Shown: one piece after another, positions 14,303 through 44,890 of the stretch | How the letters are laid out: every line of letters starts with the position of its first letter | Position numbering within the stretch: the first letter of the stretch is position 1 | Assembly (NCBI RefSeq): GCF_036924535.1 | Contig: NZ_JAZHRT010000001.1 | Span: 186,001-250,000 of the forward strand | Direction: 5' to 3' | DNA length: 64,000 nt | Source of the DNA: Bradyrhizobium sp. AZCC 2262 | GTDB lineage: Bacteria; Pseudomonadota; Alphaproteobacteria; Rhizobiales; Xanthobacteraceae | Notes under the pieces: model-generated | Databases searched by the model: none | Told to the model about the DNA's origin: nothing | Seen by the model: only the letters and a program-made list of their open reading frames with translations | Program-made: the position numbers and the translations under genes

Positions 14303-14544
14303 TTGCTGACCGACCTGCACGACCTTGAGGTCGCAAGGAGTCGGCGTTTCCCGCGATAGGACTTCGCTGCGGCATTTCTGTTTTGTAGATTTTCATTCCG
14401 ACGTTGCGCCAAACGACGTGCCGGATTTTGCGTTTTTGATACAGGGATAGTCGCGCCGCAATTAATTGCTGCAGCACGCAAGTGCGAACGCTTAGCCATC
14501 ATACGTTCGGCAAATCATCTGCCCTTACGATGAGGTGGCTCGGC

Positions 14545-15984
14545 ATGTCTTCTCAAAATGCTCTCTTGCGCAATTCAGCGTCCCAACAAGGCAGGCCGGA
14601 TGACCTTGCCGATCTCTCGGCCGTCGATCTGGTCGAACAATATCGAGCAAGGTCTCTCTCGCCCGTTGAGACCACACAGGCCGTGCTCGACCGCGTCGAG
14701 CGCCTCGACCGGCGTGTCAATGCCTTCGCATTGCTGGATGCCGAATCCGCGCTGGCATCGGCGCGCGAGTCCGAAGCGCGTTGGCAGCGCGGCGAGCCGC
14801 TCGGCCCCGTCGATGGCGTGCCGGTTGCGCTGAAGGATCTCATCCTGGCCAAGGGCTGGCCGACGCTGCGAGGCAGCCGCGCCGTCGATCCGGTCCAGGA
14901 CTGGAATGAGGACTCTCCTGCTACCGCTCGCCTCCGGGAGCAAGGTGCGGTGCTGCTGGGAAAGACGACCACGTCCGAATTTGGCTGGAAGGGCCTTGGC
15001 GACAGCCCGTTGACGGGGATTACGCGAAATCCGTGGAACGTCGCCCACACGCCGGGCGGCAGCAGCGGCGGCTCGGCAGCCGCCACAGCGCTCGGCTTTG
15101 GACCGCTTCATGTCGCAACCGATGGCGGCGGATCGACCCGGCTTCCGGCGGCGCATAGCGGCGTCTTCGGGTTTAAGCCGACCTTCGGCCGCGTTCCCGT
15201 CTATCCACCGTCACAGAACGGGACTCTCTTCCACGTCACGCCGATGACGCGCTCGGTGGACGACGCGGTGCTGCTGCTCGATGCGATCGCGCGCTCCGAT
15301 TTGCGCGACTGGAATGCGTTGCCAACTCAGGAGGGTTCCTGGTTTGAGAACCTCGATCAGGGCGTCAAGGGACTTCGTATCGCGTTCAGCCCGACGCTCG
15401 GTTATGCGCAAATCGATCCGGAGCTCGAGAGGATCGTCAGCGATGCGGCCAATACATTTGCGGAACTTGGCGCGATCGTGGAGCGCGTCGATCCCGGTAT
15501 CGAGGATCCCTTCGATATCTTCCAGACGTTTTGGTTTGCCGGCGCAACCAAGCTGGTGGCTTCGTTCGATCCCGGTCGCCGAGCTTTGATTGAGCAGGGG
15601 CTGCAGGAGGTCGCGGAGAAAGGCCGGTCGATTGACGTTATTACCTATCTTCAGGCCGTCGATCGTCGCGAAGCGTTGGGACGGCATTTCAACCAGTTCC
15701 ATCAGAAATGGGACCTGCTGCTCACGCCGACGACGGCCCATCCGGCCTCGGCGATCGAAGCATCGGGTGCCGATCTCGTGGTGCGGCCGATCCGCTCGCC
15801 CTTCACCTATCCGTTCAACATGACGCAACAGCCTGCAGCCTCCGTGCCGGCAGGGCTGACGGCCGGAGGCCTGCCCGTCGGCTTGCAGATTATCGGCGCG
15901 AAATTCGCTGATACCAGCGTACTGCGCGCTGCGAAGGCGTTCGAACAGGCCCGTCCGTTCGCGCGCCCGAAAGATCCGTCATGA
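14545..15984 (+). CDS. Amidase signature-family enzyme
   Basis: A 479-residue amidase, first gene of a nine-gene forward operon. The Ser-cisSer-Lys triad is complete: Lys97 (PVALKDLI), cis-Ser173 in PGGSSGGSAAA and nucleophile Ser197 in DGGGSTRLPA, with the 24-residue Ser-Ser spacing of the family. ATG 14545 is preceded by GAGGTGG with a 6-nt spacer; ATGs at 14530 and 14482 are less well placed. The enzyme hydrolyses a small amide in the cytoplasm. It overlaps the next amidase by 4 nt, so the two are translationally coupled and precede a NitT/TauT-type importer, suggesting an imported amide-containing substrate. A GCAATTAATTGC palindrome lies upstream at 14458-14469. Confidence 0.9.
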   Translation: MSSQNALLRNSASQQGRPDDLADLSAVDLVEQYRARSLSPVETTQAVLDRVERLDRRVNAFALLDAESALASARESEARWQRGEPLGPVDGVPVALKDLILAKGWPTLRGSRAVDPVQDWNEDSPATARLREQGAVLLGKTTTSEFGWKGLGDSPLTGITRNPWNVAHTPGGSSGGSAAATALGFGPLHVATDGGGSTRLPAAHSGVFGFKPTFGRVPVYPPSQNGTLFHVTPMTRSVDDAVLLLDAIARSDLRDWNALPTQEGSWFENLDQGVKGLRIAFSPTLGYAQIDPELERIVSDAANTFAELGAIVERVDPGIEDPFDIFQTFWFAGATKLVASFDPGRRALIEQGLQEVAEKGRSIDVITYLQAVDRREALGRHFNQFHQKWDLLLTPTTAHPASAIEASGADLVVRPIRSPFTYPFNMTQQPAASVPAGLTAGGLPVGLQIIGAKFADTSVLRAAKAFEQARPFARPKDPS

Positions 15985-17420
15985 CTGTACAAATCGAGAG
16001 CCTTGACTTCGAACTGCCGCAACTGACGGCGGCCTACGCACGCGGCGCGCTCACGCCGTCGACCGTGGTCGAGCATATCCTTCAGGAGATCGCGAGCCGC
16101 GGCGCGGACGGCGTCTGGATCAGTGTCGTTTCGCGTGAGGATGCGCTTTCGCGTGCAAGGCAGCTCGAGGCGCTGTCGAAGAGCGAACGTGAGGCGCTCT
16201 CGCTGTGGGGAATTCCGTTCAGTGTCAAAGACTGCATCGATACGATAGGGTTGCCGACGACGTCTGGCTGCCCGGTCTTTTCCTACACGCCCGCCAAGAA
16301 CAATCTTGCGGTCGAGCGTCTCCTGGCGGCAGGCGCGATCCTGATCGGTAAGACGAATATGGATCAGTTCGCGACCGGGCTGGTCGGTGTGCGCTCACCC
16401 TATGGCGTCGCGCGCAATCCCTTCGATGCGGCTTATATTCCCGGCGGCTCCAGCTCCGGCGCCGCCGTTTCGGTTGCGGCCGGACTGGTCAGCTTTGCGC
16501 TTGCCACCGATTGCGGCGGGTCGGGACGGGTACCGGCGGCTTTCAACAACGTGGTGGGCCTGAAGCCGACCCGCGGATTGATCAGCGGGATCGGTACGGT
16601 TTCGGCCTGCCGCTCGATCGAGACGCTCTCGATCTTCGCGCTCACGGTTGGGGACGCGCAGGCGGCGTTCGAGGTGGCGCGGGCGTACGACGAGGATGAT
16701 CCATTTTCGCGGCCTGATGCGCTCGAGGCGGTTCGCCCGTTGCCGGCCAGGTTCAACTTCGGTGTTCCCGGCGCGCGATGGCTGGATTTCTTCGGCAATT
16801 CGGACGCGGCGGCGCTGTTCGCCAACGCGGTTGAGCGGCTGGAAAGTTTCGGCGGGCGCAAGGTTGAGGTCGACTACACGCCGTTCACGGAGATCAACGA
16901 TCTCCTGTTCAAGGGCCCTTGGCTGGCGGAGCGCTACGGCGCCTTGCAGCACTTCGTCGACGAACGGCCTGACGCGCTATTTCCCATCACCCGCGACATT
17001 CTCGTGGGCGGCAGGAGCATTTCCGGAGCCGAGGTCTACGCCGCGCAGCAGCGGCTGAACATTCTGAAGCGGCAAGTTGCGAAGCTCTGGAATGAGATCG
17101 ACATCCTCGCCGTTCCCACCACCGGAACGATCTACCGCATCGACGAGGTCGAGGCCGATCCGATCACTCTCAATGCCAGAATCGGGACCTACACCAACTT
17201 CGTCAACCTGGCCGACCTTTCGGCGGTCGCCGTTCCCAGCGGCTTCCTGCCCAATGGTCTGCCGCAGGGCATCACATTGATCGCGCCGGCGTTTGCCGAT
17301 CGTCATGCGGCCTCGATCGGCGATCGATTTCACCGTGCAAGCGGCCTGCCATTCGGCGCGCGCCATCTGCGGGCGGCCCGTCCCAATCATGTCAACCAAC
17401 GCGAGGAGAATCTAACGTGA
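15981..17420 (+). CDS. Amidase, allophanate hydrolase (AtzF)-like catalytic domain only
   Basis: A 479-residue amidase that shares the 4-nt ATGA overlap with the previous gene. Catalytic residues are Lys83 (PFSVKDCID), cis-Ser157 (IPGGSSSGAAV) and Ser181 (DCGGSGRVPAAF). The stretches GVRSPYGVARNPFDAAYI and FNNVVGLKPTRGLIS are those of allophanate hydrolases, which split allophanate to ammonia and CO2. Those enzymes normally have a further C-terminal domain of over 100 residues; this protein stops after the amidase domain, so it may act on another carbamoyl-amide. It overlaps the binding-protein gene at 17417 by 4 nt. Confidence 0.85.
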   Translation: MTVQIESLDFELPQLTAAYARGALTPSTVVEHILQEIASRGADGVWISVVSREDALSRARQLEALSKSEREALSLWGIPFSVKDCIDTIGLPTTSGCPVFSYTPAKNNLAVERLLAAGAILIGKTNMDQFATGLVGVRSPYGVARNPFDAAYIPGGSSSGAAVSVAAGLVSFALATDCGGSGRVPAAFNNVVGLKPTRGLISGIGTVSACRSIETLSIFALTVGDAQAAFEVARAYDEDDPFSRPDALEAVRPLPARFNFGVPGARWLDFFGNSDAAALFANAVERLESFGGRKVEVDYTPFTEINDLLFKGPWLAERYGALQHFVDERPDALFPITRDILVGGRSISGAEVYAAQQRLNILKRQVAKLWNEIDILAVPTTGTIYRIDEVEADPITLNARIGTYTNFVNLADLSAVAVPSGFLPNGLPQGITLIAPAFADRHAASIGDRFHRASGLPFGARHLRAARPNHVNQREENLT

Positions 17421-18403
17421 GATCCATTGCTGCTGTTGTCGGACGAAGAGGGCTCGCGCGCGCGGCTGGGGCTGTGGCGCTCGCGGCCGTCATGGCGTTG
17501 GGGGCCGTGCCGTCGCCCGCCCAGGATATCACCATCGGCGAAGGCATCGCGCTCGGGTGGGGACAGTTCTTCGTCGCCGATCACGACAAGACCTGGGAAA
17601 AGCACGGGCTGATTCCCAAAGTATCGACATTCGCGAGCGGCCGGCTGGTGCTGGACGCACTGGTCGGTGGCGGGGTGGTGATCGGCACCGCGGCCGAGAC
17701 GCCAGTGGTGTTCGCCACACTCAACGGGCTGCCGGTGCGTATCATCGCCACGATGAACCGGCATGAGCCGTTCGATCTCGTCGCCATCAAGGACATCAAG
17801 ACCAACAAGGATATCAAGGGCCGGCGCATCGGCTATTCGCAGGGTACCAATGCGCATCTCTACTTGTCCAAATTGCTCAAGCAGGAAGGCCTTTCGTGGT
17901 CGGATATTACCGCGGTCAGCCTCAACCCTGGCGATTTCGTCAGCAGTCTCGCCGGCGGAGCGATCGATGGTTTCATCTGGACCGAGCCGCACCTGTCGCA
18001 AGCGGTCGGGCAGGCGCCGGACAAGTTCCACATCATTCGCGCGGAAGGTCTCTACAACACCTATTCGACGGTCATCACCCTGCAATCCACCATCGACAGC
18101 AAGCCGGACCTGCTCGTCAAGGCGCTGAAGGCGCTCATCGAGGCGGATGACAACATCAAGCGGGATCCCGATGCTGCCGCGACGCTGACGGCCGAGCGCA
18201 TCAAGCTCGATCCCGCCATTGCAAAGGCGTTCTGGAAGCGGGCGAATTTCAAGTTCGATCTCGACAAGCCGGCGCTGGTTTCCCAGCTCGAAGAGCAGGC
18301 CAGGTGGGCGGTTGACAACAAGCTGGTGCGGCCGGACGCCAAGATCCCGGACTTCAATACGGTGGTGGTGACGTCGGTGCTCGACAAGGCACGCAGGGAA
18401 TGA
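17417..18403 (+). CDS. ABC transporter substrate-binding protein, NitT/TauT family
   Basis: A 328-residue periplasmic binding protein starting at GTG 17417, coupled to the amidase by 4 nt. The signal peptide covers about residues 10-35 (VALAAVMALGAVPSPAQ). The mature part shows DITIGEGIALGWGQFFVADH, GRLVLDALVGGGVVIGTAAETPV (first lobe) and KGRRIGYSQGTNAHLYLSKL (hinge and second lobe), as in nitrate, sulfonate and taurine receptors. The stop overlaps the ATPase start by 4 nt. It is the receptor of the importer encoded by the next two genes; the ligand is unknown and, given the amidases, may be an amide or an N-substituted sulfonate. Confidence 0.9.
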   Translation: MRSIAAVVGRRGLARAAGAVALAAVMALGAVPSPAQDITIGEGIALGWGQFFVADHDKTWEKHGLIPKVSTFASGRLVLDALVGGGVVIGTAAETPVVFATLNGLPVRIIATMNRHEPFDLVAIKDIKTNKDIKGRRIGYSQGTNAHLYLSKLLKQEGLSWSDITAVSLNPGDFVSSLAGGAIDGFIWTEPHLSQAVGQAPDKFHIIRAEGLYNTYSTVITLQSTIDSKPDLLVKALKALIEADDNIKRDPDAAATLTAERIKLDPAIAKAFWKRANFKFDLDKPALVSQLEEQARWAVDNKLVRPDAKIPDFNTVVVTSVLDKARRE

Positions 18404-19197
18404 ACGCTAGGGTGGAAATCTCGCCGCACGCCGCTGTTGATCGACCGCTGATCAATTGCGTTGATCTCGGCCATGTCTACGATACAGGGCGCGGCCGGAC
18501 GACCGCGCTCGGCAACGTCTCGCTCACCATCGACCGCGGCGAATTTGTCTGCGTGCTCGGCCCGAGCGGATGCGGCAAGACCACGCTTCTGAATATCCTT
18601 GCCGGTTTCGTCGCGCCGTCGCACGGCGATATCAAAGTCAATGGCAGCGCGATCGATGGTCCGAGTGCGGAGCGAGGGGTCGTATTCCAGGACTACTCGC
18701 TGTTTCCGTGGCTGACGGCGCAGGCCAATGTGGAGTTTGGATTGCGGATGGCTGGGCGGGCGGCGCGGGAACGCGCCGAGATTGCGCGCGATCTGCTCCG
18801 GCTCGTCGGCCTGCCCGAGGCGGGCGCGAAGTACCCGTTCGAACTGTCGGGAGGCATGAAGCAGCGCGTTGCAATTGCACGGGCGCTGGCCACCCGTCCT
18901 TCGCTGTTGCTGATGGACGAGCCGTTTGCCGCGCTGGACGCCATGACGCGAAGCTCGTTGCAGGCCAGGCTGATCGACATCCACAAACAGGAGCATCCGA
19001 CCATCCTGTTCGTGACCCATAACATTGCGGAAGCTTTGGTTCTCGCAAGCCGCCTGATCCTGATGTCGGCCAATCCGGGACGAATCATCGAGGACATAAA
19101 GGTGGATTTGCCGCGGCCACGGCGGCGAACGTCGCCACGCTTCAATGAACTGTACGAGCATCTCGAGCGTGCCATTGGGCTCGAGACGGCGGAATAG
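18400..19197 (+). CDS. ABC transporter ATP-binding protein, NitT/TauT family
   Basis: A 265-residue nucleotide-binding subunit. Walker A is GPSGCGKT at 54-61, the Q-loop VVFQDYSLFPW at about 94, signature LSGGMKQ at 149-155, Walker B LLLMDEP at 169-175 and the switch His in FVTHN at about 207. The phrase FQDYSLFPW followed by MKQRV is typical of SsuB/TauB-like ATPases. It overlaps the binding-protein gene by 4 nt and is followed 4 bp later by the permease, which forms one membrane complex with it. Confidence 0.92.
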   Translation: MNARVEISPHAAVDRPLINCVDLGHVYDTGRGRTTALGNVSLTIDRGEFVCVLGPSGCGKTTLLNILAGFVAPSHGDIKVNGSAIDGPSAERGVVFQDYSLFPWLTAQANVEFGLRMAGRAARERAEIARDLLRLVGLPEAGAKYPFELSGGMKQRVAIARALATRPSLLLMDEPFAALDAMTRSSLQARLIDIHKQEHPTILFVTHNIAEALVLASRLILMSANPGRIIEDIKVDLPRPRRRTSPRFNELYEHLERAIGLETAE

Positions 19198-19201
19198 GGA
19201 T

Positions 19202-20068
19202 ATGGCCGTTCGCTTCAGCCGCAATACCGTCGCCGGCATCATCGGTACGCTTGCTTTCTTTGGTGCCTGGGAAGCCCTGAGCCGGAGCGGGCTCGTCAAC
19301 AGCGTGATGCTTCCGGCGCCCAGCACAATCGTTCAATCCGGCTGGTCGCTGATCGTCGATGGCGAACTGCCCCGTCACCTCGGCGCCAGCCTGCTGCGTG
19401 CGGCGGTCGGGTTTGTCGCTGGATCGGTGCTGGCCGTGCTGGTCGGGGTCGCGATGGCGCAACTGCCGCTACTGCACGGAACCATCAATCCGCTGGTACA
19501 GATGTTCCGGGCCGTACCGTCGCTTGCATTCGTGCCGCTTGCGATCTTCTGGTTTGGCATCGGGGAGGCATCAAAGATCTTCCTGATCGCCTGGGGCGTG
19601 TTCTTTCCGGTCTGGGTCAACACCTACGTCGGAGTACGCGACACCAGCCCGCTGCTGGGGCGCGCGGCGGCCAGTCTGGGCGCGCGCGGTTGGCGTAATT
19701 TCGCGTACGTCGTCATCCCCGGTGCGTTGCCCTTCATCATCGCCGGGCTTCGGGTCAGCCTGTCAGTCGCGCTGGTAGTGTTGGTCGCGGCGGAACTGGC
19801 CGGTGCGGCCTTTGGGGTCGGTTACCTCATTCAGATGTCGCAGCAGGTGTTCCGCGTCGATCAGATGTTCGTCGGCTTGATCGTGCTCGGTGCGATGGGA
19901 TTTACGGCCGATCTCCTGTTCGAACGCACAGTTCGCCGATTGCTACCCTGGTACGGTGCCGAGCGGGGCGGGGCAGCGGGGCGGGCAGATCGAGCGTTCT
20001 CGGTCGCCGTGAACGGAAGCAGCGCGAAAGCAATTTATTGCGGGTCCCAATGGACCGGACCAGCCTAA
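19202..20068 (+). CDS. ABC transporter permease, NitT/TauT family
   Basis: A 288-residue inner-membrane subunit with about six transmembrane segments. ATG 19202 follows GGAATAGGGA. The EAA-like coupling loop is LGRAAASLGARGWRNFAYVVIPGALPFIIAG (about residues 155-185). RAVPSLAFVPLAIFWFGIGE is the conserved segment of the SsuC/TauC group. The C-terminal tail beyond RLLPWYGA (about 40 residues, rich in Gly, Ala, Ser and Arg) is longer than usual and has no hydrophobic pattern; it may be a read-through of an altered stop. It is the partner of the two preceding genes. Confidence 0.9.
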   Translation: MAVRFSRNTVAGIIGTLAFFGAWEALSRSGLVNSVMLPAPSTIVQSGWSLIVDGELPRHLGASLLRAAVGFVAGSVLAVLVGVAMAQLPLLHGTINPLVQMFRAVPSLAFVPLAIFWFGIGEASKIFLIAWGVFFPVWVNTYVGVRDTSPLLGRAAASLGARGWRNFAYVVIPGALPFIIAGLRVSLSVALVVLVAAELAGAAFGVGYLIQMSQQVFRVDQMFVGLIVLGAMGFTADLLFERTVRRLLPWYGAERGGAAGRADRAFSVAVNGSSAKAIYCGSQWTGPA

Positions 20069-20098
20069 AAGGCCGGACGACGACAATGCGAGGTGAAC

Positions 20099-20386
20099 GT
20101 GCAACCCACTAACGTCGAACTACGCGAAGAATCGACGGCGCTGGCACTGACCTGGCCGGATTGCGGAACCCGGCTGCTCGAAGCGGAGACGCTGCGCCGG
20201 GCAAGTCGTGCGGCCAGCGAGATTCGCCGGCAGGTCGACGGGGTCGAACTCGTGATTCCGTCAGGGCTTTACGTGTCCGCGGTCGAGCCGATCGGGAATT
20301 ATGCCCTGCGCCTGTCGTTTTCGGACGGGCACGATCGCGGCATCTATCCCTGGTCCTATTTGCGCGAACTTGCCGGACAGCATTGA
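20099..20386 (+). CDS. DUF971 (gamma-butyrobetaine hydroxylase-like N-terminal domain) protein
   Basis: A 95-residue protein whose second half shows the DUF971/GBBH-like_N pattern: LALTWPDCGTRLLEAETLR, then GNYALRLSFSDGHDRGIYPWSYLREL. These small domains bind Zn or assist Fe-S and radical enzymes in other contexts; the exact role of stand-alone members is unclear. GTG 20099 has GAGG five bases upstream; GTG 20093 is also possible. It lies between the permease and the AprA-like flavoprotein gene, 9 bp before the latter, so it belongs to the same transcript and may assist assembly of the flavoprotein-ferredoxin pair. Confidence 0.8.
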   Translation: MQPTNVELREESTALALTWPDCGTRLLEAETLRRASRAASEIRRQVDGVELVIPSGLYVSAVEPIGNYALRLSFSDGHDRGIYPWSYLRELAGQH

Positions 20387-20395
20387 GGTCGCGAC

Positions 20396-22132
20396 ATGGA
20401 TGAGATCAAGGACGGCGTGACAGAAGTCACCTGCGATGTCCTCGTGATCGGTGGCGGGACCGCCGGGCCGATGGCGGCGTACAAGGCCAAGCGCCGCAAT
20501 CCCGCCGCGCGCGTGGTGCTGCTAGAAAAAGCCAACGTCAAGCGATCGGGCGCAATCGCGATGGGCATGGACGGGCTCAACAACGCCGTCGTTCCCGGTT
20601 ATGCCACGCCCGAGCAATACACCAAGGAAATCACCATCGCCAATGATGGCATCTGCGACCAGGCGCCGGTCTACAAATACGCGTCGCGCTGCTTTGATAT
20701 CATCCAGGAACTCGACCGTTTCGGGATCAAGTTCCAGAAAAACGAGAACGGCGATTTCGACGTCAAGAAGGTCCATCACCTCGGCTCGTACGTGCTGCCG
20801 ATGCCGAACGGCGATACCGTCAAGAAGGCGTTGTATCGCCAGCTTCGCCGCGAAAAGGTACTGATCTCCAACCGCTATATGGCGACGCGCCTGTTGAATG
20901 GACGGGACGGGCAGATCGCGGGCGCAATCGCCGTCAATACGCGCAGCGCCGAGCTTCTGGTGCTGCGTGCCAAAACCGTGATCCTTTGCGCCGGCGCGGC
21001 GGGTCGTCTTGGCCTGCCGCAATCCGGCTATCTCTGGGGCACCTATGAGAATGCCACCAATTCCGGCGACGGATATGCGATGGCCTATCATGCCGGAGCG
21101 GGGCTCGCGAATCTCGAGTGCTATCAGATCAATCCTCTGATCAAGGATTACAACGGCCCCGCCTGCGCCTATGTGGCCGGTCCGTTCGGCGCCTATACCG
21201 CCAATAGTGAGGGTAATCGCTTCATCGAATGCGACTATTGGTCGGGCCAGATGATGCAAGAGTTCTACAACGAACTGCAATCCGGCAAGGGACCGGTGTT
21301 CTTGAAGCTCAACCATTTGCACAGCGACACCGTCAGCAAGATCGAGGCCGTGCTGCACAATGTCGAACGTCCGTCGCGCGGCCGGTTCCACGAAAATCGT
21401 GGCACCAACTACCGCGAGCGCATGATCGAGATGCATATTTCCGAGATCGGGTTCTGCTCAGGCCACAGCGCATCCGGCGTTTTCGTCGACGAGTTCGCGC
21501 GTACCACAGTGCCGGGCCTGTATGCCGCGGGCGATATGGCCAGCGTGCCGCATAACTACATGCTTGGCGCGTTCACCAATGGCGCGGTGGCGGGGGAGCA
21601 CGCGGCGGAATTCGCCGCGAATATCGATCTTCCCGACTACGACCCCGCTGACGTCGCCCGCGAGCAGGCGCGCGTGCTGGCGCCGACAAGGCGGGAGGAC
21701 GGGATTCCGCCGAACCAGCTCGAATACAAGGCCCGACGCTTCGTGAACGACTACCTTCAGCCGCCGAAGGTCACGGCGAAGATGAAGATCGGCCAGGCGC
21801 GCTTTGCCGAGATTCGCGAGGACATGGAAAACGCCATGGTGGTACGCGATGCGCACGAACTGATGCGCTCGCTGGAGGTCGCCTCCATTCTGGATTGTGC
21901 CGATATGGCGGCGTTCGCCTCGTTGTTCCGCACCGAGAGCCGCTGGGGCCTCTATCATCACCGCGTTGAATATCCGGAAAAGAACGATGACGAGTGGTTC
22001 TGCCACAGTATCCTGCGCAAGCAGGACGGCCTGATGATCGCGGAAAAGCGGCCGGTCGCACCCTATGTGGTTCTGATAGTGGAATCCGAGCGTTCTGCTT
22101 ACGACCGCCAGCGCATCCGCCAACACGCCTGA
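20396..22132 (+). CDS. AprA-like FAD flavoprotein (fumarate reductase / APS reductase alpha-subunit family)
   Basis: A 578-residue cytoplasmic flavoprotein. FAD-binding GGGTAG is at 19-24, followed by EKANVKRSGAIAMGMDGLN (44-62). The latter matches the FAD-contacting loop of APS reductase alpha subunits better than that of succinate dehydrogenases. A second FAD-contact region is GLYAAGDMASVPHNYMLGAF (374-393), and SGHSASG with His357 precedes it. By eye against Archaeoglobus AprA from memory, Asn62 and His357 match active-site Asn74 and His398, Tyr217 replaces Trp234, and Leu248 sits where the sulfate-binding Arg265 should be. The ferredoxin partner gene starts 14 bp downstream. Probable role: two-electron oxidation or reduction of a sulfur or related small substrate; not proven to be APS reductase. 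Confidence 0.82.
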   Translation: MDEIKDGVTEVTCDVLVIGGGTAGPMAAYKAKRRNPAARVVLLEKANVKRSGAIAMGMDGLNNAVVPGYATPEQYTKEITIANDGICDQAPVYKYASRCFDIIQELDRFGIKFQKNENGDFDVKKVHHLGSYVLPMPNGDTVKKALYRQLRREKVLISNRYMATRLLNGRDGQIAGAIAVNTRSAELLVLRAKTVILCAGAAGRLGLPQSGYLWGTYENATNSGDGYAMAYHAGAGLANLECYQINPLIKDYNGPACAYVAGPFGAYTANSEGNRFIECDYWSGQMMQEFYNELQSGKGPVFLKLNHLHSDTVSKIEAVLHNVERPSRGRFHENRGTNYRERMIEMHISEIGFCSGHSASGVFVDEFARTTVPGLYAAGDMASVPHNYMLGAFTNGAVAGEHAAEFAANIDLPDYDPADVAREQARVLAPTRREDGIPPNQLEYKARRFVNDYLQPPKVTAKMKIGQARFAEIREDMENAMVVRDAHELMRSLEVASILDCADMAAFASLFRTESRWGLYHHRVEYPEKNDDEWFCHSILRKQDGLMIAEKRPVAPYVVLIVESERSAYDRQRIRQHA

Positions 22133-22146
22133 GATACGGATACCTC

Positions 22147-22380
22147 ATGCCGATTGCCAACACCCCCACAACCGTCCCTGTCATTGTCGACGAGGCTAAA
22201 TGCATCGCCGACAAGGGCTGCACCGTCTGCGTCGATGTATGCCCCCTCGATGTGCTCCGGATCAGCGATCTCACCGGCAAGGCGTACATGAAGTATGACG
22301 AGTGCTGGTATTGCATGCCGTGCGAGACCGACTGCCCGACCGGGGCCGTGACCGTCAACATTCCCTATCTGTTGCGCTGA
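22147..22380 (+). CDS. AprB-like 2[4Fe-4S] ferredoxin
   Basis: A 77-residue protein with eight cysteines in two cluster motifs. The first is C-x6-C-x2-C-x3-CP (KCIADKGCTVCVDVCP), with an insertion relative to standard ferredoxin, similar in kind to the irregular first motif of AprB. The second is CWYCMPCETDCP. The end of the second motif, TGAVTVNIPY, parallels the GAIDVRGY of APS reductase beta subunits, but the C-terminal arm that wraps around AprA in the known enzymes is missing. ATG 22147 is 14 bp after the flavoprotein stop. It is expected to carry electrons to or from the flavoprotein. The HEAT-repeat gene starts 1 bp after its stop. Confidence 0.87.
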   Translation: MPIANTPTTVPVIVDEAKCIADKGCTVCVDVCPLDVLRISDLTGKAYMKYDECWYCMPCETDCPTGAVTVNIPYLLR

Positions 22381-22381
22381 G

Positions 22382-23347
22382 ATGACCGCGTTCGAACCAT
22401 TCGAGGCGTTCGGTGACCTCGAGGAGATTTCCGAGCGGCTGGATAGCCCGGATCCATCGGTGCGGCGTCTTGCGGTCATCGATCTCGTGGAGACGTCGAG
22501 CGGTGAGGCCATTCCGCTGCTGGTACGGGCAGCGGGCGATTCGGATGCCGAGGTAAGGCTGCAGACCGCCCGGGCGTTGGGCGAGTTCGACGGCGTAGAT
22601 GTGGCCAAAGCGCTGGCAGGTGCTCTGACCGACCCCGCGACGGTTGTCGCGCAGGCCGCCGCGGACAGTCTCGCGGAACTTCGCGATTCGACGGCCAGCA
22701 CCGTATTGCTCCCCTTGGTGACGCATTCATCGGCCTTCGTGCGTGCTGCGATCTTTCGCGCGCTCAAGGCGCTGCAGGTCAGCGCGTCGCTCGGGCCGGC
22801 CATTGCCGCCCTCGGCGACGCTGATGCCGCGGCGCGCGTGCAGGCGGTCGGCGTGATCGGCTATCTGAAGACGATCGAGACGTTGCCTTCACTGATCCAT
22901 GCGACCAGGGACGAGGACGCCGACGTCAGGCTTGCAGCCATCAATGCGCTGTCCTTTGCACGCAATGAGGCGGCGGCACAGGCGGCCGCGGACGCGCTGT
23001 CGGATGGCGAATGGCAGGTGAGAGCGGTGGCGGCCGAGACAATAGGGCGGATCGGCCAGATTTCGGTAGCGACGGCGCTGATCCGGTCACTCGATGATGG
23101 CTACTGGCAAGTTCGTCAGAAGGCGCTGCAGAGCCTTGGCCAGCTCCACGCACGTGCTGCCGTCGCCTCCATCATTCCATTCCTTGATGATCCGCTTCCC
23201 TCGCTGCGCAAGGACGCCGCCGCGGCGCTCGGCGAAATTGCCGATCCGAAAGCTAGCGACGCGCTTGCGGCGCGCGCTCAGGACGAAGATCCGGATGTAC
23301 GCAAGACCGTGATCTGGGCGCTCGGAAAAATCGAGGCGCGCAACTAG
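22382..23347 (+). CDS. HEAT-repeat protein
   Basis: A 321-residue alpha-helical repeat protein with no other domain. About ten repeats of 30-32 residues run from residue 23 to the end; each carries the VR-x2-A-x2-AL core of PBS-lyase-type HEAT repeats (for example EVRLQTARALGEF, DVRLAAINALSFA, WQVRAVAAETIGRI, WQVRQKALQSLGQL, DVRKTVIWALGKI). Such solenoids bind proteins or act as chaperones for cofactor insertion (as in phycobilin lyase subunits). The gene begins immediately after the ferredoxin stop, so the product most likely interacts with the flavoprotein-ferredoxin pair. It ends with a 4-bp overlap on the convergent Crp/Fnr gene. Confidence 0.9.
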   Translation: MTAFEPFEAFGDLEEISERLDSPDPSVRRLAVIDLVETSSGEAIPLLVRAAGDSDAEVRLQTARALGEFDGVDVAKALAGALTDPATVVAQAAADSLAELRDSTASTVLLPLVTHSSAFVRAAIFRALKALQVSASLGPAIAALGDADAAARVQAVGVIGYLKTIETLPSLIHATRDEDADVRLAAINALSFARNEAAAQAAADALSDGEWQVRAVAAETIGRIGQISVATALIRSLDDGYWQVRQKALQSLGQLHARAAVASIIPFLDDPLPSLRKDAAAALGEIADPKASDALAARAQDEDPDVRKTVIWALGKIEARN

Positions 23348-24180
23348 TCCTTGAACAGGATCGTCTCCAGCAGATCGATGCGCTTGATGCGGATGACGCT
23401 GCCCTCGATGGCGATGATGCGCTTGGCTTGAAAGCGCTTGAGCATCATCGTGACCCACTGGCGGGTCGATCCGACCATTGCCGCAATCTGGTCGTGGGTT
23501 ACCTTGCGATTGATGACGATCGTATCGCCATCGGAAACGCCGTAGAGCTCGGACAGGTTCAATAGATATTGCGCCAGCCGCTCGATCACTGATCGGGTTC
23601 CCAGGATCTGCGCCATTGAGGAGTAGCACTTGCCCTTGGCGATCAGCCCGTCGATCAGTGCCAGTGCAAACGCCGGCATCTGCGTCAGAAGCTTCTGCAG
23701 GGTGGCGCCGGACAATGCCGTGATCTCGCAATCCTCGATCGCGACGCCGGACCACATATGTATGCCGCCGCCGTATATATCCGGCCCGCCAATGAAATGG
23801 CCTGGCGTCCAGTAAGCAAGGGTGATCTCGCGGCCAGAGGGGGCGGTGTAATAGACCCGAACCTGGCCGCGCTTGATGACGAATATCCCGTCATGATGTT
23901 CACCCTGATTGAACACCATCTCGCCCTGGTGCACGGGAACGGTGCGACCCGCGCCCTGAACCTGCGCGATCTGCTGGGCGGACAGACGATCGAGAAAATG
24001 TGCGCCGACATTCAGCCCCTCGATGGATTCGCTCATGAACAGGGCGGATTCCTTGCGAGCGGGTGGCCTGGATACGACCGCAAGCCGTTCCTTGGCCGGC
24101 CAGTCCAGCTGTACGACAGCGCCGGTCCGGGCCATCAGGGCCGACGGTTCGGGGTCGGACGCTTCTTTGAGTGTTGTCAT
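23344..24180 (-). CDS. Crp/Fnr family transcriptional regulator
   Basis: A 278-residue regulator with a cyclic-nucleotide-type beta barrel (MVFNQGEHHDGIFVIKRGQVRVYY; REITLAYWTPGHFIG; about residues 85-150) and a C-terminal Crp winged helix (VTHDQIAAMVGSTRQWVTMM, about 230-255). There are no Fnr-type cysteines in the N-terminus, so oxygen sensing by an Fe-S cluster is not indicated. Several in-frame starts exist; ATG 24180 is a compromise, and an ATG at 24039 would remove a disordered 47-residue N-terminus. It is convergent with the HEAT gene and divergent from the NosL-fusion transporter operon at 24503, its most likely target. Confidence 0.88.
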   Translation of the reverse strand: MTTLKEASDPEPSALMARTGAVVQLDWPAKERLAVVSRPPARKESALFMSESIEGLNVGAHFLDRLSAQQIAQVQGAGRTVPVHQGEMVFNQGEHHDGIFVIKRGQVRVYYTAPSGREITLAYWTPGHFIGGPDIYGGGIHMWSGVAIEDCEITALSGATLQKLLTQMPAFALALIDGLIAKGKCYSSMAQILGTRSVIERLAQYLLNLSELYGVSDGDTIVINRKVTHDQIAAMVGSTRQWVTMMLKRFQAKRIIAIEGSVIRIKRIDLLETILFKD

Positions 24181-24502
24181 TGCCGTCGTTTCATTCGCGA
24201 TGTCGCCGACAGCTAAATGGGACGGAATGACAAAGTCCACTTCTTTGAACGAGTCGAAATACACTTAGCAAAGGTCATGCGCCAACGCGTTGTTGTCGAG
24301 ATGATTTATCTGCCGACCGTGCCGCAACGAGAAAATCATTTGACGGTATTCGACGGCACATTGCGACGGAATCACGACGCGGCGCGGGCAAGGGGTGGAA
24401 CGCAAGTAATTGCTTCAGCCGGCGACGCGCAGACTCGATAGTCCGGATCGATCGTTCATGCTGGCGGCAATGTGCCGGCCATCGATAGTCGAGGACAGGC
24501 CG
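24181..24502. other. Divergent promoter region between crp/fnr-like gene and transporter operon
   Basis: No gene is seen. The only symmetric element noted is GCAAGTAATTGC (24402-24413), with GCAA and TTGC arms as in the palindrome at 14458-14469. GAGGACAGG (24491-24499) is the ribosome-binding site of the next gene. No classical Crp site (TGTGA-N6-TCACA) or Fnr box is visible. Confidence 0.4.
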
Positions 24503-25924
24503 ATGATCTCTTCTGGTATTGTGAGAATAACCGCTGCCGTCGCGGTTGCGATGATCGGTCTGACCGGCATGTCGCGCGCCGAAACCATTCGTGTTGCGGT
24601 CGGGACGCAGGACACGACGATCAATTGCGTAACCGGCGGGCTTTTGATCCGCGAACTCAAGCTCCTTGAGAAGTTTCTGCCGCGCGATGGCAAATACAAG
24701 GACGTCACCTACGATATCCAGTGGAAGAACTTCACCAGCGGCGCGCCGCTCACCAACGAGATGGTTGCCGGCAAGCTCGATCTCGGCGCCATGGCGGATT
24801 TCCCGGGCTCACTGAACGGTGTAGCGTTCCAGAAAGCCAGCCGGCGCAGCCTCTTCATCAGCGTTCTCTCTGGCAGCACCAAGGGCAGCGGCAACGGCAT
24901 CGTGGTGCCGGTGAATTCCCCGGTGCAGTCGATTGCCGATCTGAAGGGCAAGACAATCTCCGTTCCCTTTGCGTCGACTTCTCACGGCATGTTGCTCCGA
25001 GCGATCGAAGCCCAGGGCTGGAACCCGGAGACGGACGTCAACATCATCACGCAGGCTCCTGAAGTCGCAGGACCCGCGCTGCAAGCGAACAAGATCGAAG
25101 CCCATGCCGACTTCGTGCCGTTCGCCGAGCTGTTCCCGTGGCGGGGTTTCGCGCGCAAGATCTTTGACGGATCGCAAGTCAACGCGCCGACCCTTCATGG
25201 ATCCCTGGTCGATGCCGAATATGCAGACAAATATCCCGAGATCGTCGTTGCGTATCTGCGCGCCGCACTAGAGGCCGACCGCCTGATCGCCGAAGAACCC
25301 GAAAAATACAGCGAGCTGATCACCAAGGTGACAGGCATCGATGCGGAAGTGGCTTATCTGTTTCACGGGCCGCTTGGCCTGCAGACGCGCAGCGTGACCT
25401 GGAAGCCGGAATACCGTCAGGCGGTAGCGACATCGATCAAGACGCTGAGGCATCTGAAGCGCGCCGACAGCGACCTCGACATCAATCAATTCGTCACTGA
25501 CAAATTCATCCGCACAGCGCTATCGCAGGTCGGCCGCGATTACGACGCTGAGCTGAAGGATTACGCCCAGCTTCCTCTGAAAGCCAAGGATGCGACGACT
25601 GGAGCCGACATCACGGATTTCAGCCGGGTGGCGCAAATCTGGGTCAAGGACGAACCCAAGCTCCGTCACTTCAGCTCGCCAGAGAACGCGTTGCAAGCGC
25701 TCGCTGCGCTGGAGAAGGAAGGCAAGGCGGTCCGCGTGGTCTATGCGCAGGATCGCGATAGCGGCATCAAGCTGTTTGCGAACCAGGCGTGGTTCGTCCG
25801 CTCGGGCAAGGGCGAACTGAGTGCGTTCCTGCTCAAGGACGGCGCCGAGAAATGGTCGAAGGAGCACGGCGGTAACGTGATCGATTACGCCGGTGCGCGC
25901 GGATCCCCGGTGGCGAGCCGGTAG
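24503..25924 (+). CDS. NitT/TauT substrate-binding protein with NosL-like C-terminal domain
   Basis: A 473-residue exported protein. The signal peptide is at residues about 8-25 (AVAVAMIGLTGMSRAE). Residues about 26-350 form a NitT/TauT binding domain (GKLDLGAMADFPGSLNGVAFQ; LKGKTISVPFASTSHGMLLRAI). The last 120 residues do not belong to that fold. They contain KLRHFSSPENALQAL, then LFANQAWFVRSGKGELSAFL and KEHGGNVIDY (454-457 is the EHGG), a pattern of NosL-type copper-binding accessory proteins, though NosL's Cys and Met ligands are not obvious. A normal family member has about 330 residues, so this is a fusion. It is first in a three-gene operon with a permease and an ATPase. Confidence 0.82.
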   Translation: MISSGIVRITAAVAVAMIGLTGMSRAETIRVAVGTQDTTINCVTGGLLIRELKLLEKFLPRDGKYKDVTYDIQWKNFTSGAPLTNEMVAGKLDLGAMADFPGSLNGVAFQKASRRSLFISVLSGSTKGSGNGIVVPVNSPVQSIADLKGKTISVPFASTSHGMLLRAIEAQGWNPETDVNIITQAPEVAGPALQANKIEAHADFVPFAELFPWRGFARKIFDGSQVNAPTLHGSLVDAEYADKYPEIVVAYLRAALEADRLIAEEPEKYSELITKVTGIDAEVAYLFHGPLGLQTRSVTWKPEYRQAVATSIKTLRHLKRADSDLDINQFVTDKFIRTALSQVGRDYDAELKDYAQLPLKAKDATTGADITDFSRVAQIWVKDEPKLRHFSSPENALQALAALEKEGKAVRVVYAQDRDSGIKLFANQAWFVRSGKGELSAFLLKDGAEKWSKEHGGNVIDYAGARGSPVASR

Positions 25925-25927
25925 CGG

Positions 25928-26731
25928 ATGGCATCTGGACGCACCATCGACCGGTTGCCGATGTTGCGGTGGCTCGTTCGTGCCGGGTCAATTCTGGCTT
26001 GCATTGGGCTTTGGCAGCTGGCCTCGTCATTGCACGTGCATCTTGGTATCGTGACGTTCCGCAATGTACCGCCCCCAACCGAGGTCGTTCAGTCCGCAAT
26101 CGTCCTACTGAAGTCACCAAAACTCTTCGCGCATATCAGCAGCAGCCTGTGGCGGGTGTTTGCCGGCTACGGTGCTGCGGTTGTTATCGGCATAGCATTC
26201 GGATTCGCGATCGGCCGGTCGCGCGCCGCCAGCGATCTGTTGCTGCCGCCACTTGAACTGCTACGGCCGATCCCCGCGGTGGCGTGGATACCGCTGTCGA
26301 TCCTGATGTTCCCGTCGTCCGAACTGTCGATGATCTATATCACCTTCATCGGCGCGCTGTTCCCGATCATCCTGAACACTGTGCACGGCGTCGCCAACAT
26401 CGACCGCAGGCTTGTTGCGTCCGCGCGCAGCCTCGGCGGCACGCCTGTCGCGATCCTGCGTGAGATCGTGTTGCCGGGTGCGGCACCCAGCATCGTTACG
26501 GGACTGGCTATCGGCATCGGCACGTCCTGGTTCTGCCTCGTCACCGCGGAGATGATCTCCGGCCAGTTCGGGATCGGTTACTACACATGGGAAGCCTACA
26601 CGCTGCAGAACTATGCCGACATCATTGTTGGCATGCTGGTGATCGGCCTGCTCGGAATGGGCAGCAGCTGGCTGCTGACGACGCTCGGTCATTATTTGAT
26701 GCCGTGGCGGCATCCGGCGGTCGCGCGATGA
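25928..26731 (+). CDS. ABC transporter permease, NitT/TauT family
   Basis: A 267-residue membrane protein, 3 bp after the binding-protein stop, with about six transmembrane segments. RPIPAVAWIPLSILMFPSSEL and the coupling loop DRRLVASARSLGGTPVAILREIVLPGAAPSI (about residues 160-190) are the SsuC/TauC signatures. The end of the gene overlaps the ATPase start by 4 nt (ATGA). It forms the channel of the importer whose receptor carries the unusual C-terminal domain. Confidence 0.9.
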   Translation: MASGRTIDRLPMLRWLVRAGSILACIGLWQLASSLHVHLGIVTFRNVPPPTEVVQSAIVLLKSPKLFAHISSSLWRVFAGYGAAVVIGIAFGFAIGRSRAASDLLLPPLELLRPIPAVAWIPLSILMFPSSELSMIYITFIGALFPIILNTVHGVANIDRRLVASARSLGGTPVAILREIVLPGAAPSIVTGLAIGIGTSWFCLVTAEMISGQFGIGYYTWEAYTLQNYADIIVGMLVIGLLGMGSSWLLTTLGHYLMPWRHPAVAR

Positions 26732-27567
26732 ATATCCGGGTTACCGACATAGCCACAAAGACCGTTGGACGCATCGACGTCGCCAATGTCTCGATTTCGC
26801 TCGGGGAGGGCGCCGACGCTTTCGAGGCGGTCCGCGGTCTCAATTTCGCGGTCGCGCCGGGCGAGCTCGTATGCGTTCTCGGCCCGTCCGGCTGTGGCAA
26901 ATCGACTTTGCTCGGCGCACTGGCGGGGCATTTGCAGCCGACGCAGGGGCAGTTGACCGTGGACGGTCAGCCGCTCCTCGGTCCAAGCCCCGACCGGGGA
27001 ATCGTGTTTCAGCAGCACACGCTGTTTCCCTGGAAACGGGTCCGCGACAATGTTGCGTTCGGACCGAAGATGCGCGGCATCGGCAAGGCTGAGCGGCGCC
27101 GTACGGCGGACGAAATCCTGAAGCTGGTCGGTCTTGATGGCTTCGAGACCTTCTATCCCTCGCAATTGTCCGGCGGCATGCAACAGCGGGTCGAAATCGC
27201 CCGCGTTCTCATCAATCAGCCTCGGGTGCTGCTGATGGACGAGCCATTCGGCGCCCTGGACGCACAGACGCGCAGCCTGATGCAGGAGGTGTTGCTGGAC
27301 ATCTGGACCAAAATTCCGACCACGACCGTGTTCGTGACCCACGATATCGAGGAGGCGCTCTTCCTTGCCGACCGGATCATCGTCATGAGCGTGCGGCCGG
27401 GGCGGGTGATCGACGACATCCGCCTGCCGTTCGCGCGGCCCCGTCATGGCGAACTCGTCACCGAGACCGAGTTCGTGCGTCTGAAGCGCCACATCCTTAA
27501 CTTGCTCCGGCGCCCCGACGATGCTCTGCCGCTGGCGCGGCTAAGCCCGCTCGGCGTTCCCGGCTGA
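26728..27567 (+). CDS. ABC transporter ATP-binding protein, NitT/TauT family
   Basis: A 279-residue ATPase starting at ATG 26728, which overlaps the permease stop by 4 nt. Walker A GPSGCGKS is at 52-59, Q-loop FQQHTLFPW at about 94, signature LSGGMQQ at 147-153, Walker B VLLMDEP at 167-173 and switch His in FVTHDIEEALFLADR. The first 40 residues before the strand ELVCVLG form a slightly longer N-terminus than in the other three paralogues. It energises the 25928 permease. The gene is followed by 33 bp and then a convergent small gene. Confidence 0.92.
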   Translation: MNIRVTDIATKTVGRIDVANVSISLGEGADAFEAVRGLNFAVAPGELVCVLGPSGCGKSTLLGALAGHLQPTQGQLTVDGQPLLGPSPDRGIVFQQHTLFPWKRVRDNVAFGPKMRGIGKAERRRTADEILKLVGLDGFETFYPSQLSGGMQQRVEIARVLINQPRVLLMDEPFGALDAQTRSLMQEVLLDIWTKIPTTTVFVTHDIEEALFLADRIIVMSVRPGRVIDDIRLPFARPRHGELVTETEFVRLKRHILNLLRRPDDALPLARLSPLGVPG

Positions 27568-28788: not shown

Positions 28789-30132
28789 TCACGCGATCGC
28801 CTGGATGGCATTGGAGAACACGCTGGCCGGCCGAGTCAGGCCGTAGTGGTCACGCAAGGTCTTCCCGGCATACTCTTCGCGAAACAGGCCGCGCTTGCGC
28901 AGGATCGGCACCACCTGCTCGGCGAATACGTCGAACCCGCCGGGCAGCCAGGGCGGCATGACATTAAAACCATCGGCTGCGCCGTTCTCGAACCAGGTCT
29001 GGATGTTGTCTGCGATCTTTTCCGGCGGCCCCGCGATCACCCAATGACCGCGGGCGCCGGCGAGGCGTTGCACCAGTTGGCGGATGGTCGGCTTCTCGCG
29101 ATCGACGATGTCGACGACGAGCTTGAAGCGGCTGGCGACACCGCGCGCGTCCTCGGTATCGATCAGGTGCCGCGGGAAGGGGCCGTCGAGGTCGAAGCCC
29201 GAGAGATCGAGCCCGATCATCTGCCGGAGCTGGGTCAGCGAATATTCCGGTTGGATCAACTCGTTGAACTCGTCCTGCAGGCGATCGGCTTCCACCTGCG
29301 TGCTGGCAATGAACGGGCTGATGCCCGGCAGGATCTTGATCTGATCGGGGTGCCGGTCGAAGGCTCGGGCCTGCCGCTTGATGTCGGCATAAAACTCCTG
29401 GGCGCTCGCGAGCGTCTGATGCGCGGTGAAGATCGCCTCTGCGAAGCGTGCGGCAAAGGCGCGGCCGTCCTCGGACGAGCCGGCCTGGACGTAGACCGGC
29501 CGTCCTTGCGGCGTCCTTGAGATATTGAGCGGCCCACGCACGCGGAAATGCTTTCCGATGTGATTTAACGCGTGGATCTTGCCGGTGTCGGCGAAAACGC
29601 CGGAGGCTGGGTCGTTGACGAGCGCGTCGTCTTCCCAACTGTCCCAAAGCCGCGTGATGACATCAAGATATTCCCGTGCTCGCTCGTAGCGCTCGTGATG
29701 AGGAGGATGCTCCGGCAGGCCGAAGTTCTGTGCCGCCTGCGGTGAGCTTGTCGTGACGATGTTCCAGCCGGCGCGGCCGCCGCTGATGTGATCCAGCGAA
29801 GCGAACAGGCGCGCCAGATTGTACGGCTCGGTGTAGGTCGTTGAAGCCGTTGCGATCAGGCCGATCCGCGTGGTGGCAGATGCAATTGCCGTGAGCAAGG
29901 TGATCGGCTCGAGACGGAAACGCGCCGCGTAGCGGACGTTGTCGGCAAGCACTGGACCGTCGGCGAAGAAGACCGCATCGAACTTGTGCGCTTCGGCGCG
30001 CTGCGCTAGCTCCTGATAGTACGTGATGTCGAGGACACGGTCGGATGCCGATGCCTTGTGGCGCCACGCAGCCTCGTGATGACCGTCCGGATAGATGAAG
30101 AAGTTGAGGGAAAGCTGCCGTCGTTCGCTCAT
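28789..30132 (-). CDS. LLM-class flavin-dependent monooxygenase (NtaA/SnaA/DszA family)
   Basis: A 447-residue FMNH2-dependent monooxygenase of the bacterial-luciferase fold. Features of the DszA/NtaA subgroup: the N-terminal strand LSLNFFIYPDGHH, DAVFFADGPV, then IGLIATASTTYTEPYNLAR with SGGRAGWNIVTT (about residues 90-125), ERYERAREYLDVITRLWDSW, GPLNISRTPQGRPVYVQAGSS and a C-terminal EYAGKTLRDHYGL. Members oxidise sulfones, EDTA/NTA-type amines or dibenzothiophene sulfone with a reduced flavin supplied by a separate reductase. It overlaps the upstream methyltransferase by 4 nt. The likely role is C-S or C-N bond cleavage of an imported compound. Confidence 0.9.
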   Translation of the reverse strand: MSERRQLSLNFFIYPDGHHEAAWRHKASASDRVLDITYYQELAQRAEAHKFDAVFFADGPVLADNVRYAARFRLEPITLLTAIASATTRIGLIATASTTYTEPYNLARLFASLDHISGGRAGWNIVTTSSPQAAQNFGLPEHPPHHERYERAREYLDVITRLWDSWEDDALVNDPASGVFADTGKIHALNHIGKHFRVRGPLNISRTPQGRPVYVQAGSSEDGRAFAARFAEAIFTAHQTLASAQEFYADIKRQARAFDRHPDQIKILPGISPFIASTQVEADRLQDEFNELIQPEYSLTQLRQMIGLDLSGFDLDGPFPRHLIDTEDARGVASRFKLVVDIVDREKPTIRQLVQRLAGARGHWVIAGPPEKIADNIQTWFENGAADGFNVMPPWLPGGFDVFAEQVVPILRKRGLFREEYAGKTLRDHYGLTRPASVFSNAIQAIA

Positions 30133-43549: not shown

Positions 43550-44890
43550 TCAGGCGGAAGCAGCAGCGCGGGCCGGGCCGGCAAAGCGGCTTGGCGGATG
43601 CGGCAGACCGAAATGGTTGCGCAGCGTCGTCCCGGCATAGTCGCGCCGGAACAGCCCGCGCTTCTGCAGGATCGGCACTACGTTGTCGACGAAGACCTCG
43701 AGCCCGGACGGCAGCACGTCCGGCATCAGGTTGAATCCGTCGGCGGCACCTGCCTTGAACCATGCTTCGATGTCGTCGGCGATCTGCTCCGGCGTGCCCA
43801 CGATGATACGGTGACCAACGCCGCCGCCGAGCGCCCGCAGCAGTTGGCGGACGGTCAGATTGCCGCGGCGGGCGATATTCACGGTTCCCTGGAACATGGT
43901 GTGGTTCGCGTTGGGCGGGAGAGGCAACGGGTCGGGCAGGGGCTTGTCGAGTTCGAGCAGCGCGGGATCGATCTGCAGCGTGCCCGCAAGGCGCGCGAGG
44001 CTATATTCGATCGGGACCAGTTCCCAGAGTTCGTCCTGCCGCCGCTTTGCTTCTGCTTCGGTGCTCCCGATCACGGTAGCGAGCCCGGGCAGGATGACGA
44101 TCGAATCACCGGCGCGGCCGTATGCAACGGCGCGGGTCCGCAAATCTCGCGCATAGGCGACGCCTTCTTCGATCGTTTGCGCCAGCGTGAACACTGCTTC
44201 GGCCTGCGCCGCCGCGAGATCGCGGCCGTCGCTCGATCCACCGGCCTGCACGGTGACGGGACGCCCTTGCGGCGAGCGAGGCACATTCAGGGGGCCCGCC
44301 ACGGAGTAATGCGCGCCGCGATGAGCGATCGGATGCACTTTTGACGTATCGACGAACCGTGCGCTGGCCTTGTCGCCGATAAAGGCATCGTCTTCCCAGC
44401 TATCCCACAGCGCGTGCACCACCTCGGCGAATTCCTTGGCGCGGTCGTAGCGTGCCTTGTGCTCCAGTACGCCGGGGAGACCGAAATTGCGGCTCGCGGC
44501 GGCATCGGCCGTGGTGACCGCGTTCCAGCCGGCGCGGCCTCCGCTGGCGAGGTCGAGCGTCGCGAAGCGGCGGGCGATGTTGTAGGGCTCGTTGTAGGTC
44601 GTAGACGCAGTGGCGATCAGGCCGATGTGGCTGGTGGCGGCCGCAACCGTCGCCAGCACGATGGTCGGCTCCAGCGACATGAACGAACGGTAGTCGATCC
44701 GGTCCGTAATCGCGGGCGTGTCCGCCAGAAAGATCGCGTCCAGCCTGCCGCGCTCGGCGATCCTGGCGACGCGCACGTAATGGCCGATATCGAAGCAGGC
44801 GCGTGGGTCGCTCTCGGGCAGCCGCCATGCCGAGGCGTAGACGCCGGAGTGGAGGAGGTTGACGTTGAGGTGAAGCTGACGGGAGGACAT
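43550..44890 (-). CDS. LLM-class flavin-dependent monooxygenase (NtaA/SnaA/DszA family)
   Basis: A 446-residue paralogue of the protein at 28789, with the same order of motifs: LHLNVNLLHSGVYASAW, DAIFLADTPA, IGLIATASTTYNEPYNIARR, SGGRAGWNAVTT, DRAKEFAEVVHALWDSWEDD, GPLNVPRSPQGRPVTVQAGGS and FRRDYAGTTLRNHFGL at the end. ATG 44890 is used; GTG 44899 would add three residues. It converges on the SfnG-like gene (4 bp apart) and is divergent from the flavoprotein-ferredoxin operon. Role as for the family: cleavage of a C-S or C-N bond with reduced FMN. Confidence 0.9.
   Translation of the reverse strand: MSSRQLHLNVNLLHSGVYASAWRLPESDPRACFDIGHYVRVARIAERGRLDAIFLADTPAITDRIDYRSFMSLEPTIVLATVAAATSHIGLIATASTTYNEPYNIARRFATLDLASGGRAGWNAVTTADAAASRNFGLPGVLEHKARYDRAKEFAEVVHALWDSWEDDAFIGDKASARFVDTSKVHPIAHRGAHYSVAGPLNVPRSPQGRPVTVQAGGSSDGRDLAAAQAEAVFTLAQTIEEGVAYARDLRTRAVAYGRAGDSIVILPGLATVIGSTEAEAKRRQDELWELVPIEYSLARLAGTLQIDPALLELDKPLPDPLPLPPNANHTMFQGTVNIARRGNLTVRQLLRALGGGVGHRIIVGTPEQIADDIEAWFKAGAADGFNLMPDVLPSGLEVFVDNVVPILQKRGLFRRDYAGTTLRNHFGLPHPPSRFAGPARAAASA

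Follow-up and report, generated by a model that had tools for sequence, protein, structure and literature searches.

An AprA-like flavoprotein and small ferredoxin of Bradyrhizobium sp. AZCC 2262 in a conserved module with a sulfonate-type importer and a likely role in organosulfur scavenging

The 3'-phosphoadenosine 5'-phosphosulfate (PAPS) reductase of Methanothermococcus thermolithotrophicus (8a8o) pairs a flavoprotein with a small 2[4Fe-4S] ferredoxin and acts on the nucleotide; the accessible text of its description proposes an attack on sulfur by N5 of flavin adenine dinucleotide (FAD) and electron transfer through Trp42, and describes no HEAT protein or importer (PMC10322725). Further points of comparison are the adenosine 5'-phosphosulfate (APS) reductase AprBA (1jnr, 2fja) and the asfRABC clusters, in which, by their accessible descriptions, a reductase/ferredoxin pair adjoins a sulfonate importer and serves aromatic desulfonation (PMC4267179, PMC2864759). 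Here, we describe a flavoprotein gene (20396..22132, + strand, 578 residues) and a ferredoxin gene (22147..22380, + strand, 77 residues) in a 64,000-nucleotide stretch of Bradyrhizobium sp. AZCC 2262 (contig NZ_JAZHRT010000001.1, positions 186,001 to 250,000; the window, whose own coordinates are used throughout). The two proteins look like distant kin of sulfate-reduction enzymes. Sequence and context support both this kinship with AprA and PAPS reductase and membership of a conserved module with a sulfonate-type importer, and the role of the module is likely to be the scavenging of organosulfur compounds.

Both genes are genuine, close-set open reading frames, with 9 bp ahead of the flavoprotein gene, 14 bp between the two and 1 bp after the ferredoxin gene. 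The flavoprotein passes the whole-protein model NF006131 (PRK08275) with 1069.6 bits (curated cut-off 587) and misses the AprA models TIGR02061 (141.6 bits; cut-off 641.75) and NF005331 (268.4; cut-off 557). Its best solved relatives by sequence are the PAPS reductase (chain 8a8o_A, 193 bits) and the APS reductase (1jnr_A, 132 bits), and Foldseek placed the same two first and second when given a modest AlphaFold model built from 25 close relatives (mean predicted local distance difference test score, pLDDT, 65.3). Scans of viral contigs for relatives of AprA and of the flavoprotein gave none, and the bacterium's own genome holds no aprA match at E ≤ 1e-150. In a 28-row tree, for which the program warned of long branches and in which long branches meet, the flavoprotein groups with AprA and a PAPS-reductase-like row, and the AsfA-like, SdhA and NadB-like rows stand apart (99/99). 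The unconstrained tree nests the AprA and PAPS reductase rows inside the flavoprotein family; a constraint grouping the 15 family rows was not rejected (approximately unbiased test, p-AU 0.308), so the tree neither establishes nor rules out monophyly of the family.

The FAD loop SGAIAMGMDGLN and the SGHSASG region, likened to the APS reductase alpha subunit in the first-pass annotation, are both present and match SGAVAQGLYAIN and GSHATG of AprA in the alignment. Asn62, Lys250 and His357 are common to the flavoprotein and AprA; Asn62 and His357 correspond to the active-site Asn and His of AprA, presumably its Asn74 and His398. In the 1jnr alignment Tyr217 falls at AprA Trp234 and Leu248 at the sulfate-binding Arg265, as had been read from the sequence. 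None of these five residues varies among the 34 relatives aligned, which comprise proteobacteria, three cyanobacteria and one actinobacterium, whereas Trp and Arg stand at positions 217 and 248 in all six fetched AprA sequences and in a PAPS-reductase-like protein of Ilyobacter (gene between cysC and cysD; alignment gap at the Asn62 column), so the two substitutions are a family trait and no quirk of a single genome. In the alignment with 8a8o, the Methanothermococcus PAPS reductase likewise retains the Trp and Arg. No replacement for the missing Arg was seen elsewhere in the alignment. Arg325, Arg328 and Arg335 are invariant in the family, and the rows of AprA, the PAPS-reductase-like protein and the AsfA-like proteins read differently there; the three could contact an anion as spatial stand-ins for the absent Arg265.

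The ferredoxin matches the Fer4 families and resembles an AprB core without its tail. Its irregular first cluster motif, C-X5-C-X2-C-X3-C, is followed by the beta-subunit-like CWYCMPCETDCP, as reported earlier, and its CW motif, in a region shared with the small subunit of AprBA, recurs in every one of 98 relatives. With 77 residues, compared with 150 in Archaeoglobus fulgidus AprB, it has no space for the docking tail, whose absence had also been recognised; its score against the AprB model TIGR02060 (33.6) is below the cut-off of 135.65.

The distribution of the pair was drawn from genome samples and plasmid records. Ninety-nine loci were annotated by BLAST against chosen partner proteins (≥50% coverage, at which divergent partners can be missed), and neighbours were counted in the 80 loci with at least 7.5 kb on both flanks, 31 of which are on a hand-made Bradyrhizobium list. 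A conserved module emerges in proteobacteria, cyanobacteria and an actinobacterium, consisting of the flavoprotein, the ferredoxin, a HEAT protein, a DUF971 or Mrp protein, a regulator and an importer that is the second of two in the window. The ferredoxin is present at all 80 loci, and the HEAT protein is separate at 79 and fused to the flavoprotein at the remaining one (L113; the PRK13800 form, Tsukamurella). DUF971 or Mrp occurs at 69 loci, the binding protein of the second importer at 72, and a CRP, GntR or LysR regulator at 74. Ferredoxin-NADP reductase is found at 44 loci and FdxA at 21 (either one at 50), and the sulfite-exporter families YeiH and TauE at 30 and 5, respectively (one or the other at 33). 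YeiH lies in line with ferredoxin-NADP reductase and the flavoprotein at three loci (L008, L040, L042) and past the regulator at two (L043, L046), and three cyanobacterial plasmids carry it along with TauE; YeiH confers sulfite resistance in Salmonella, by the accessible part of the report (PMC12880088). Amidases, offered at first as part of the defining context, occur at only 11 of the 80 loci and a flavin mononucleotide (FMN) monooxygenase at 4, and the same BLAST set found sulfatase and AsfA at none.

The conserved importer consists of a binding protein (24410..25924, + strand, start uncertain), which is SsuA/TauA-like with a NosL-like C-terminal domain (TIGR01728, 111.5 bits, below the cut-off of 163.5), a permease (25928..26731, + strand; PF00528, 8.8e-21) and an ATPase (26728..27567, + strand; taurine/nitrate-type ABC ATPase models, below cut-off). 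Five solved relatives of the binding protein comprise two SsuA, one TauA, one named nitrate transport protein and one uncharacterised protein. Among 398 genomes sampled from the phylum, 21 encode the flavoprotein and 20 the binding protein, the 20 being a subset of the 21 (hypergeometric 8e-33, which ignores kinship). Because every sampled genome with the binding protein carries the flavoprotein, this importer (24410-27567) and the flavoprotein belong together; the upstream importer, initially taken as the partner of the pair, is not the conserved one. Weak matches to the binding protein were seen in Paenibacillus and Acidithiobacillus caldus records.

Four loci have the same importer type with no adjoining flavoprotein gene. 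In one of them (genome G028, L144) the flavoprotein lies elsewhere, and the other three (L126, L129, L130) carry a sulfatase and a formylglycine-generating enzyme. These are a third importer copy of the bacterium's own genome near 1.37 Mb (sulfatase PF00884, 3.4e-37; maturase PF03781, 5.8e-81; SulP PF00916), a Paraburkholderia plasmid with importer, sulfatase, maturase and SulP, and a Gordonia plasmid with importer, sulfatase and maturase. They share with the flavoprotein loci the type of binding protein (30-41% identity), the permease, the ATPase and a CRP or GntR regulator, whereas the sulfatase and its maturase, with SulP in L126 and L129, replace the flavoprotein module. In a Mycobacterium adipatum record a closely similar sulfatase occurs with the maturase and SulP, and such an importer was not found in that stretch; nor was one found near four remoter sulfatases (45-46%). 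The exchange of cassettes suggests that the imported compound bears an -SO3 group, which the sulfatase removes by hydrolysis and which the flavoprotein, as its counterpart, would by inference remove by reduction. The Gordonia plasmid (L130, 2558-4495) and a Mycobacterium plasmid (L150, 8579-10501) carry an extra gyrB next to their genes for the sulfatase, its maturase and a GntR protein, perhaps, as a guess, for self-protection against a gyrase inhibitor.

The mechanism that we tentatively prefer, at somewhat below an even chance, is that the flavoprotein, driven by NADPH or ferredoxin, reductively frees sulfite from an organosulfur anion taken up by the cell. The anion, presumably a sulfonate, sulfate ester or sulfamate, would enter through the 24410-27567 importer, and electrons would probably pass from NADPH to ferredoxin-NADP reductase and FdxA in many relatives. 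Reduced ferredoxin would then charge the small 2[4Fe-4S] protein and, through it, the non-covalently bound FAD of the AprA-like subunit; the Trp of the CW motif may be the equivalent of PAPS reductase Trp42. N5 of the reduced FAD would attack the sulfur of the substrate, a step proposed for both APS and PAPS reductase, forming an FAD adduct and setting sulfite free for assimilation, and surplus sulfite would leave through YeiH or TauE exporters in many relatives. The HEAT protein probably clamps the ferredoxin to the flavoprotein, standing in for the AprB tail. A broader proposal, held more loosely still, is that the family comprises O2-independent, ferredoxin-driven reductases with which aerobic and oxygenic bacteria release sulfite directly, by FAD-sulfite chemistry, from organosulfonates, sulfate esters or sulfamates that they import, the HEAT subunit replacing the AprB tail.

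Several observations weigh against reductive release. The strongest are that the position of the sulfate-binding Arg265 is Leu in all 34 relatives; that none of the own-genome YeiH and TauE matches above cut-off (2 and 16, respectively) falls inside the window, so the flavoprotein copy there has no local exporter; and that, next to APS, ordinary sulfonates and sulfate esters offer a poor leaving group. Neither exporter was found at 47 of the 80 loci, and the loci are not independent: off the Bradyrhizobium list an exporter occurs at 10 of 49. The binding protein is absent nearby at 8 of the 80 loci, and in G028 a long distance separates it from the flavoprotein (the two lie at 1.39 and 4.28 Mb). 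The AlphaFold model is poor near the active site, and arguments from the pocket were therefore avoided.

Among the alternatives, the one that fares best, though unlikely, is that the flavoprotein reduces another group of the imported organosulfur compound (C=C, N-O, sulfoxide or similar) or a thiosulfonate, and that other enzymes free the sulfur later. Complex-II relatives perform hydride transfer, and the lost Arg and Trp leave space for a non-sulfuryl substrate; against this, the flavoprotein retains Asn, Lys and His from the AprA site, and the sulfatase loci share the importer type. Next, and also improbable, is an electron-transfer chain serving an oxygenase, in which the pair would not itself cut the sulfur bond, as proposed for AsfA/AsfB in aromatic desulfonation. 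The asfRABC clusters, as far as their accessible descriptions go, share the plan of flavoprotein, ferredoxin, sulfonate importer and regulator (PMC4267179, PMC2864759). The window itself holds a second, AsfA/AsfB-like pair (45127-46836 and 46782-47153), so the flavoprotein-ferredoxin plan occurs twice, and the same island contains at least two monooxygenases of the NtaA/DmoA family (28789-30132, 43550-44899), both tested; these FMN monooxygenases, like those near 4 of the 80 relatives, fit an oxygenase. The module has no recurring oxygenase, however, since the searched monooxygenase type is confined to those four loci, and AsfA differs from the flavoprotein: identity is about 24-25% to the AsfA-like protein of the window and to the probable AsfA of Cupriavidus metallidurans CH34, and AsfA branches apart in the tree and differs in its active-site residues, with no equivalents of Asn62, Lys250 and His357 in the alignment. 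Identification of the flavoprotein itself as AsfA, under a first reading of the module as asfRABC, was rejected on its 25% identity to the CH34 protein. The search of the CH34 megaplasmid returned distant flavoproteins only, one of which neighbours a ferredoxin and an importer of sulfonate type; this is probably AsfA, it is 65% identical to the AsfA-like flavoprotein of the window, and we infer that the CH34 pair is Rmet_4334/5 from its make-up and rough position in a record unannotated there.

A variant APS or PAPS reductase of sulfate assimilation is very improbable: these reductases are the closest by sequence and fold, but the Arg265 and Trp234 positions hold Leu and Tyr throughout the 34 relatives, the TIGR02061 cut-off is far out of reach and the importer found alongside is a sulfonate-type one. 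A fumarate reductase or succinate dehydrogenase, the product name of both PRK08275 and the HEAT-fused PRK13800 in NCBIfam, has next to no probability, for the His of the HPTG motif and Arg286 of E. coli SdhA, which we take to be catalytic, align with Asn246 and Gln285 in all 34 relatives, so that the catalytic residues of fumarate reductase and aspartate oxidase are absent, and the tree sets the flavoprotein outside the SdhA and NadB-like rows. The family residues, as aligned, thus contradict the label. The proposal of the first-pass annotation, a redox enzyme of AprA type acting on a substrate other than APS, fits because of the family-wide loss of Arg and Trp, the PAPS and APS reductases as nearest relatives and the sulfonate-type importer context; its description as new does not hold in the strict sense, NCBIfam already having PRK08275 and PRK13800. 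A literature search, with subscription journals mostly outside its reach, found no functional study of the PRK08275 family; to the extent of that search, the family has a name and nothing more.

The flavoprotein lies in a run of nine + strand genes (14482-23347) spaced by -4 to 24 bp, taking 19202 as the start of the first permease: two amidases (14482..15984, PRK06169; 15981..17420, allophanate-hydrolase-like), which are lineage-specific, the binding protein (17417..18403), ATPase (18400..19197) and permease (~19202..20068) of the first ABC importer, a DUF971/GBBH-like_N protein (20093..20386; PF06155, 1.1e-17), the flavoprotein, the ferredoxin and the HEAT-repeat protein (22382..23347; HEAT_2, 4.5e-49; match to the C-terminal part of PRK13800). 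The operon first outlined thus stands in its upstream amidases, importer and DUF971 gene with their 4-bp overlaps and short gaps, and extends past the pair to a HEAT gene that had gone unmentioned, even though it falls within the coordinates first given (20396-23347). Downstream lie a Crp/Fnr-type regulator (23344..24264, - strand; cNMP_binding, HTH_Crp_2) and then the second importer on the + strand. In cyanobacterial relatives Mrp/NBP35 takes the place of the DUF971 protein, and the LysR regulator can be over-long (L118, 9688-11688, - strand, 666 residues; also L111 and L135), with a weak, sub-cut-off match to an NMT1-type binding-protein domain in its C-terminal part.

The host genome (9.48 Mb, one contig), of Bradyrhizobium type to judge by its nearest relatives at 93-95% identity, carries a near-identical second operon copy near 6.66-6.69 Mb (L127, L128), whose flavoprotein is 96% identical; a regulator, a binding protein and a permease of its own lie close to this 6.67-Mb copy. 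Two LLM-type monooxygenase-like genes were seen by eye near it. The NosL-like domain of the conserved binding protein (~25625-25888) scores 20.4 bits, below cut-off, and all three NosL matches of the genome are sub-cut-off and fall on this SsuA/TauA-like type; with no conserved Cys or His visible by eye, a copper link through this domain was rejected. On Acidithiobacillus caldus pTcM1 (L114, 10574-14035) fdxA and the gene of a 1153-residue FAD-dependent oxidoreductase come after the module, and at one metagenome-assembled locus (L045, 10001-11734) a single in-frame stop in the flavoprotein frame reflects either a damaged gene or a mistake in the assembly. At eight loci (L009, L015, L026, L043, L046, L048, L052, L067) the module's importer has as neighbours the copper-handling gene SCO1 and a di-heme cytochrome-like gene, joined by a second copper-handling gene, PCuAC, at all but L043.

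The PRK08275 family spans proteobacteria, cyanobacteria and actinobacteria, is often plasmid-borne, and stands under an ill-fitting fumarate reductase name. If reductive release is correct, it would be an O2-independent reductase family and the reductive counterpart to sulfatases and to desulfonation by oxygenases, an APS reductase scaffold shifted to a new substrate, and soil organosulfur would yield sulfur without oxygen and without the ATP cost of sulfate activation. The module, the residue signature and the sulfatase swap render this function testable.

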